A stretch of 64,000 nt of DNA from Trichocoleus sp. FACHB-46 (GTDB lineage: Bacteria; Cyanobacteriota; Cyanobacteriia; FACHB-46), in NCBI RefSeq assembly GCF_014695385.1, contig NZ_JACJOD010000010.1:62001-126000 (forward strand). Direction: 5' to 3'. Below the pieces are notes generated by a model, which made no database searches, was not told the DNA's origin, and was given only the letters and a program-made list of their open reading frames with translations. The position numbers and the translations under genes were made by a program. This document shows positions 5,489 to 7,096 of this stretch, piece after piece (within the stretch, counting starts at the first letter, position 1; each line of letters opens with the position of its first letter).

Positions 5489-5851
5489 ATGCATGTGACT
5501 ATTAACAGCAACAAACTTTGCATTGAACTTAACTTCTGGGAAAAACTCTGGGCTTTGCAGTTCAATTACACTTGGCAAATCCCTCTTGATCACATCGAGC
5601 GAGTTACCACAACCGCGCCTTCAAGTAATTGGAAAACACTCATCTGGAAAGAAGTAAAGCTACCTGGAACCTTTGTGCCAGGTGTAATTAAAGCTGGGAC
5701 TTATTACACAGATCAGGGTCGGGAGTTTTGGTATGTCACAGATGACAAAAACTATTTAATTCTCGACCTAAAAAATGAGTTTTACCAAAAAGTGATTTTG
5801 ACTGTAGAACAAAATCAACTTTTGGCAGAGCAATTGAATTTAGAGCGCTAA
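5489..5851 (+). CDS. Hypothetical protein, possibly PH-like fold
   Basis: Protein of 120 residues from the ATG at 5489; the open frame runs further upstream into the GH1 gene, but that part is unlikely to be coding. It has no membrane segment or signal peptide. The alternating hydrophobic strands, WEKLWALQ near the N terminus, IPLDHIERV, and the closing LDLKNEFYQKVILTVE helix-like stretch recall small bacterial PH-domain proteins that read out membrane or protein contacts. That is a pattern impression, not a firm match. It lies 26 bases after the GH1 stop and may be co-transcribed. Confidence 0.6.
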   Translation: MHVTINSNKLCIELNFWEKLWALQFNYTWQIPLDHIERVTTTAPSSNWKTLIWKEVKLPGTFVPGVIKAGTYYTDQGREFWYVTDDKNYLILDLKNEFYQKVILTVEQNQLLAEQLNLER

Positions 5852-6013: not shown

Positions 6014-6063
6014 TTTACACAAACTTCATCAAATATCGCTAAAAATACATCGTTAGTTTAAAC

Positions 6064-6104
6064 AGAGATTAAATAAGTCAAGCCAAATTAAGTAGAGATT
6101 AAAT
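6064..6104 (+). repeat. Direct repeat AGAGATTAAAT, 30 bases apart
   Basis: The 11-mer AGAGATTAAAT occurs at 6064 and 6094. The second copy leads into the TTAA-periodic block described next. The 30-base spacing is close to three helical turns, compatible with a regulator site, but low complexity makes chance possible. Confidence 0.4.
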
Positions 6105-6127
6105 TAAAATTAACCTTTGCTTAACCG
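6098..6127 (+). promoter_or_regulatory. Pho-box-like triple repeat (SphR/PhoB site)
   Basis: Three octamers in tandem with 3-base spacers: ATTAAATT, ATTAACCT and CTTAACCG. All share a TTAA core at an exact 11-base period. The cyanobacterial Pho box is known as direct octamer repeats of the PyTTAAPyPyT type with 3-base spacers. The second and third copies fit well, the first only in its core. It lies about 170 bases before the ATG of the six-helix membrane protein, so phosphate-dependent control of that gene is inferred. Confidence 0.5.
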
Positions 6128-6295
6128 TTTCTAAGGCTGGAATTTCTGATTAAAGGTTGCTCTTCTACTATGTCTTCTCCTGCATTAGCTTCTATCTAAA
6201 GCAGGAAAATATACCTGTTTTGTCCTTGTCTCATTAGGGTGGATGACTTTTTCTGCTAACTTGCTGAGTCCACGCTTCGAAGGTACCGAGCAACC

Positions 6296-7096
6296 ATGAT
6301 TTCTATCTCCTCTAGAAAAGTTGTTAAATTTCTAGCGTTTGTTGTCCTAGGCTTGCTTTCCTTCAGTCTGTTAGGGCAACTTTCCAAGGTTCTATGGGGT
6401 GGCGATCGCCAGTGGATTACGTCGTTGGCTCATGTCTTTGATCTAGATCGAGAAAAAAATCTGCCTAGTTTGTATTCGGCGGCAACGCTATTTATTTGCG
6501 CTTTTCTGCTAGCGTTCATTACTTGGGTTAAGCGTCAAAATCGCGATCGCTATGTTTGGCATTGGGGATTTCTGTCTTGTATTTTTCTCTTCCTCAGTGC
6601 TGACGAATGGACTAGTATTCATGAAAAAACCATTGAACCGCTTAGAGCTTTGCTCGGTAGCAATGGTGGTGGAGTTCTATACTTTGCTTGGGTCGTTCCC
6701 GGTGCCCTTTTTGTGGGCGTTGTCGCGATCGCCTATCTCAAGTTTTTGACCGATTTGCCTCCTCGCACCAAGCGACTGGTTTTGCTCGCGGGCACGCTCT
6801 ATGTTGCTGGGACTTTAGGCATGGAAATGATAGACGGGGCCTATGCCAACCAGTATGGGACGCGCATTTGGGGGACGCAAGGCTTAAGACTTAGCCTGGA
6901 GGCAGGAGTCTATACGCTAATGATGACCTGCGAAGAAGCTCTAGAGATGGTGGGGGTACTAATTTTTATCTATACACTGCTCTCTTACCTGGGGGATTGC
7001 ATTCAGGAAGTCCGCATTCGGATCGATGCTGACAGAAATCCAGTTTTGTCTGATGTGGTTGTTGGTGCAGCAATGCCGAATAGAGGACGGGCTTAA
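6296..7096 (+). CDS. Six-helix membrane protein of unknown function
   Basis: Protein of 266 residues with about six predicted membrane helices (near residues 10-30, 58-78, 88-101, 128-148, 160-177 and 213-232). Charged residues lie in or beside the helices: DEWTSIHE after helix 3 (D103, E104, H109, E110), EMID at 177-180, and EEALE at 213-217. Such a cluster suggests a metal site or a membrane hydrolase of the CREST kind (alkaline ceramidase-like), but I cannot confirm any family. The Pho-box-like repeat upstream hints at a phosphate-starvation role. The gene stands alone, with its stop 5 bases from the convergent hydrolase gene. Confidence 0.75.
   Translation: MISISSRKVVKFLAFVVLGLLSFSLLGQLSKVLWGGDRQWITSLAHVFDLDREKNLPSLYSAATLFICAFLLAFITWVKRQNRDRYVWHWGFLSCIFLFLSADEWTSIHEKTIEPLRALLGSNGGGVLYFAWVVPGALFVGVVAIAYLKFLTDLPPRTKRLVLLAGTLYVAGTLGMEMIDGAYANQYGTRIWGTQGLRLSLEAGVYTLMMTCEEALEMVGVLIFIYTLLSYLGDCIQEVRIRIDADRNPVLSDVVVGAAMPNRGRA

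Follow-up and report, generated by a model that had tools for sequence, protein, structure and literature searches.

A Pho-box-like array precedes the gene of an uncharacterised family of predicted six-helix membrane proteins in Trichocoleus sp. FACHB-46

In the 64-kb stretch of the Trichocoleus sp. FACHB-46 genome that we analysed (the window), a gene for a small membrane protein is preceded by a regular array of TTAA-containing octamers, arranged as follows.

6057 to 6075, plus strand: Pho-box-like octamer pair TTTAAACA gag ATTAAATA, with starts at 6057 and 6068, apart from the run of four
6087 to 6094, plus strand: Pho box 1, ATTAAGTA, unchanged in both of two congeners and overlooked in the initial annotation
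6098 to 6105, plus strand: Pho box 2, ATTAAATT, unchanged in both congeners
6109 to 6116, plus strand: Pho box 3, ATTAACCT, which is ATTAATCC in one congener and decayed in the other
6120 to 6127, plus strand: Pho box 4, CTTAACCG, which is CTTAAACA in one congener and gone from the other
6296 to 7096, plus strand: coding sequence of a 266-residue six-helix membrane protein from a Pho-box-associated family without a Pfam or NCBIfam model

The octamers at 6087, 6098, 6109 and 6120 are all centred on TTAA, separated by 3-bp linkers and held in register at an exact period of 11 bases. The initial annotation had described the last three of these and likened them to published cyanobacterial Pho boxes, and both observations hold, with a fourth repeat besides. 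In the definition of Su et al. 2007 (PMC1906773), a cyanobacterial Pho box consists of three or more direct repeats of 8 bp, separated by 3-bp linkers so that the period is 11 bases; the array has four repeats in register and fits the profile from the literature, which is CTTAACCT-like and has a conserved TTAA. The pattern TTAA-N7-TTAA-N7-TTAA has two overlapping matches in the window, both at 6087-6127, where shuffled sequences predict 0.01. When scored with a profile derived from the boxes that the same paper tabulates (its Table 1), three boxes at the site reach 22.1, the maximum for the window on both strands (next best, 12.8), a score equalled by none of 60 shuffles. In Synechocystis, electrophoretic mobility shift assays found that binding of PhoB requires each of three TTAA cores (PMC11126600). 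Of the two congeners, one retains all four boxes and the other only the first two, and one has a similar octamer pair at the position matching 6057-6075. Because the left neighbouring gene, on the same strand, ends at 5851 and the right one lies on the opposite strand, 6296-7096 is the only gene that the boxes can serve.

The 6.56-Mb genome contains 12 overlapping sites of the triple pattern, grouped in 10 places, and runs of four boxes are found at only two of these places, namely before 6296-7096 and before its paralogue on contig 8, whose product is 44% identical. Among the other eight, one precedes a PhoA-type alkaline phosphatase gene and one a PhoX-type phosphatase gene, so the pattern marks known phosphate-starvation genes in Trichocoleus sp. 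FACHB-46. One of the pstS-like genes of this genome scores 18.9 with the three-box profile, and two others have no such score. A search of the genome for the exact CTTAACCT pair returned zero matches, this pattern being too strict. Contig 31 encodes a PhoB-like (SphR-like) regulator, with a histidine kinase gene after it; the regulator scores below the TIGR02154 cut-off, and we infer that it is SphR. A second SphR-like regulator gene, on the minus strand of contig 21 (L147:1375-2175), is broken by an in-frame TAG, whereas its relative on contig 31 is uninterrupted; the broken gene lies near the boxed PhoA-type gene, and a pstS-like gene is on the same contig.

We gathered 63 homologues from cyanobacterial genomes, each with up to 5 kb of flanking DNA per side as contig ends permitted, and took a profile score of at least 13 at period 11 as a strong three-box site. 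Such a site precedes 24 of the 63 homologues, compared with 1-5 of 63 at other periods, 5 of 201 neighbouring genes at the same loci and 14 of 32 phoX and pstS genes; p-values for the comparison with these other genes call for a loose reading, as related genomes are not independent. The repeat is thus kept before the orthologues, the paralogue and many homologues at roughly the phoX/pstS rate, whereas its loss from upstream of orthologues had been named by the initial annotation as evidence against its reading. A profile-free comparison gave the same picture. In the 56 homologue upstream regions left after removal of near-copies, pairs of TTAA are spaced by 11 bases in 59 cases and by 22 in 25, with no more than nine at any other distance up to 40; exact TTAA triples at period 11 occur in 13 of these 56 regions and in 0 of 174 controls, and none occurs in the 56 regions at periods 7-10 or 12-16. 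Control by SphR/PhoB is well supported at the sequence level by this sharp 11-base peak and the lack of triples at other periods, and a phosphate-starvation regulator very probably controls 6296-7096.

In the protein tree, boxed members are scattered over most branches, and a single one falls in a well-supported clade of 17 to which small-genome, marine-Synechococcus-like members belong. Many distant members are without boxes, so the biochemical role of the protein need not concern phosphate. At one cyanobacterial locus (L045:5001-6795, genome G020), the membrane protein gene is tandemly duplicated, with a separate three-box site for each copy. Relatives outside cyanobacteria are carried on plasmids of Deinococcus and Rhodobacterales. 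A search for Escherichia coli-type PhoB boxes at seven non-cyanobacterial loci turned up a single, weak candidate (p 0.007), the Rhodobacter triple TGGTCATC, TGTGACC and TGTCATT at L107:5803-5862, just upstream of the relative on a plasmid of Rhodobacter sp. CZR27. A 37% identical relative (L033:5001-5690) is on a contig binned as Armatimonadetes, reflecting either genuine spread or mis-binning.

The open reading frame at 6296-7096 is real, as the order's two other genomes both carry orthologues with 76-79% identity and 82 of the 390 genomes in the class have homologues. The six membrane helices that had been proposed from the sequence reappear as six long helices in an AlphaFold model (mean pLDDT 87.6, pTM 0.84). 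When 62 members were compared with Pfam and NCBIfam, no family matched more than 3 of them. A match to OST3/OST6 (PF04756) over residues 45-110 (E value 0.00025) reached 21 bits against a curated cut-off of 27, was found in one of the 62 members and was judged to be chance. Neither a sequence search of the PDB (best E value 0.054) nor a Foldseek search of a PDB library (E value of at most 0.001) returned a significant match, and the viral fold library BFVD gave nothing significant. Two single-protein viral scans yielded one short match of 41 residues and nothing, respectively, and so no evidence of viral carriage. Conservation across the family is concentrated in four stretches of the protein.

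6452 to 6454, plus strand: codon of E53 in the motif FDLDREKN.P, conserved, in a predicted extracytoplasmic loop before helix 2
6602 to 6625, plus strand: motif DEWTSIHE with D103, E104, H109 and E110, nearly invariant, at the predicted outer end of helix 3
6824 to 6826, plus strand: codon of E177 in the motif GMEM, in helix 5
6932 to 6946, plus strand: motif EEALE with E213, E214 and E217, of which E214 and E217 are invariant, in helix 6

Across the 62 sequences, E214, E217 and W90 are invariant, and E53, D103, E104, H109, E110, E177 and E213 nearly so. Lysine and arginine are abundant at the N-terminus and in the loops between helices 2 and 3 and between helices 4 and 5, the other loops being acidic or neutral. 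By the positive-inside rule, this distribution predicts a cytoplasmic N-terminus, with the nine acidic and histidine residues on the outer half of the membrane. DEWTSIHE, EMID and EEALE, to which the initial annotation had drawn attention, contain residues that are invariant or nearly so and all on one predicted side, which suggests a metal-binding site; on this predicted topology, the nearly invariant Asp, Glu and His residues are one-sided, as would be expected of the ligands in a metal-dependent membrane enzyme.

The most coherent account of these observations, with a probability of roughly 0.65 for regulation and function taken jointly, is that of a periplasm-facing, metal-dependent membrane enzyme switched on by SphR. 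When phosphate is exhausted, SphR, the cyanobacterial PhoB, would bind the four boxes at 6087-6127 and turn on the single gene at 6296-7096. Its product would be a six-helix inner-membrane protein with both termini in the cytoplasm, in which E53, D103, E104, H109, E110, E177, E213, E214 and E217 most likely make up a site for a divalent metal on the periplasmic side. The protein would then most likely be a metal-dependent enzyme whose substrate, possibly lipid-linked, belongs to the membrane or envelope, and would serve the phosphate economy of the cell. Against this, its sequence shows no catalytic motif recognisable from a known enzyme. The boxes, their conservation and their co-occurrence with phosphatase genes are read directly from the DNA, as are the invariant residues and the helix layout from the protein; binding of SphR, induction, topology, metal binding and enzymatic action are inferred from them. 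For the function on its own, a periplasm-facing metal-dependent enzyme is a tentative best guess, placed ahead of a carrier.

Several alternatives have to be weighed against this account, and two of them share its regulatory part. The protein may instead be a channel or carrier whose cargo could be, for instance, a divalent metal ion that is freed or becomes scarce as polyphosphate is used, with the acidic and histidine residues as its ion site. This is possible, in line with a compact six-helix bundle that has acidic residues in helices 5 and 6 and at the end of helix 3, and with the relative in Rhodobacter sp. CZR27, which adjoins a heavy-metal P-type ATPase gene and mgtA; against it, solved transporters give no fold match, and the conserved residues are gathered, on the predicted topology, toward one face and do not line a path across the membrane. 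A periplasmic role in the metabolism of envelope glycans or polyprenyl phosphate, such as the recycling or modification of a lipid carrier, is rather unlikely as a separate reading and overlaps with the metal-dependent enzyme that we favour. It draws on the neighbourhoods of relatives in or near polysaccharide clusters on two Deinococcus and two Rhodobacterales plasmids: polysaccharide genes surround those of two Deinococcus and one Paracoccus, and lipopolysaccharide genes lie a few kilobases from the Parasedimentitalea copy. In the box-poor clade, a related polytopic membrane protein is encoded within 5 kb at four loci (PMT-like in one of the four), marine loci lie near genes for PMT_2/DUF2079 membrane proteins, and at two loci a D-Ala-D-Ala ligase gene begins 35 bases downstream. 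Whereas these neighbourhoods hint at metabolism of envelope glycans or lipid carriers, most of the cyanobacterial copies are solitary, the cyanobacterial loci share no conserved operon partner, and solved proteins of such a kind give no fold match. In D. ficus, pstS is about 5 kb from the relative.

Remodelling of phospholipid to sulfolipid under phosphate starvation, which the initial annotation had offered as a possible role, is improbable. Pho regulation and a membrane location are compatible with it in principle, and the Pho part of that proposal stands on sequence grounds. The lipid part found no specific support: no neighbour with such a role was identified at the loci examined, including beside 6296-7096, and the informative neighbourhoods are those with envelope-glycan genes. 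Moreover, sulfolipid replacement is widespread among cyanobacteria, whereas the family occurs in only 82 of the 390 class genomes. Least probable is that the repeat serves another OmpR-type regulator with sites spaced by 11 bases, or that it is an accident of AT-rich sequence. The genome does encode many OmpR-type regulators and TTAA is a simple palindromic core; the sharpness of the 11-base peak, together with the controls, however excludes an accident, and another regulator is disfavoured because the same pattern precedes the PhoA- and PhoX-type genes here and matches the SphR consensus.

The array before 6296-7096 resembles those of the cyanobacterial Pho regulon (phoA, phoX and pstS/sphX) in having tandem 8-bp TTAA repeats, at least three in number, with 3-bp linkers in an upstream intergenic region. 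It differs from them in that four consecutive boxes are accompanied by a separate pair, and in that its target is an unnamed membrane protein, neither a known phosphatase nor a known transporter. Among small membrane enzymes, UppP and alkaline ceramidase have sites built from acidic and histidine residues, and the family is like them in combining several membrane helices with conserved Glu, Asp and His near one membrane face. The conserved motifs differ, however, and matches to the PDB by sequence or by fold (E value of at most 0.001) are absent.

Phosphorus limits the growth of cyanobacteria in many waters, and Pho-regulon genes without an assigned function are where missing steps of the phosphate economy may hide. 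The family represented by 6296-7096 appears to be a new, uncharacterised member of the Pho regulon: it bears the putative switch about as often as phoX and pstS do (24/63 compared to 14/32) and yet has no Pfam or NCBIfam model and no solved relative. From the recurrence of the switch, it would seem to be an overlooked part of the cyanobacterial response to phosphate starvation. Conceivably, it is an unrecognised family of periplasm-facing, metal-dependent membrane enzymes with a fold absent among solved structures; it would then rank as a core phosphate-starvation target across many cyanobacteria and connect phosphate limitation with envelope or lipid-carrier chemistry. A literature search for presumed marine locus tags found no mention of them. 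The supplementary tables of Su et al. 2007 (PMC1906773) hold further hypothetical genes, and the family may already be listed among them.

Other triple sites of the Trichocoleus sp. FACHB-46 genome lie at L101 (C13:432154), L104:1590-2411, L105 (C48:12842), L094 (C6:195979) and L096 (C6:816542). The genes adjoining them, which are candidate Pho targets, comprise a cation-efflux (CDF) gene, a gene for an unnamed 273-residue protein divergent from PhoX, one for a large protein that belongs to no Pfam family, and others for small membrane proteins or proteins of no known kind. Two DUF7219 (PF23856) genes also lie behind a triple 11-base TTAA site each (L095:1501-1930, C6:417090; and L103:1501-1829, C22:213573). 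In a class-wide sample of DUF7219 genes, 6 of 29 upstream regions contain an exact triple, and DUF7219 may be another overlooked family of the Pho regulon.
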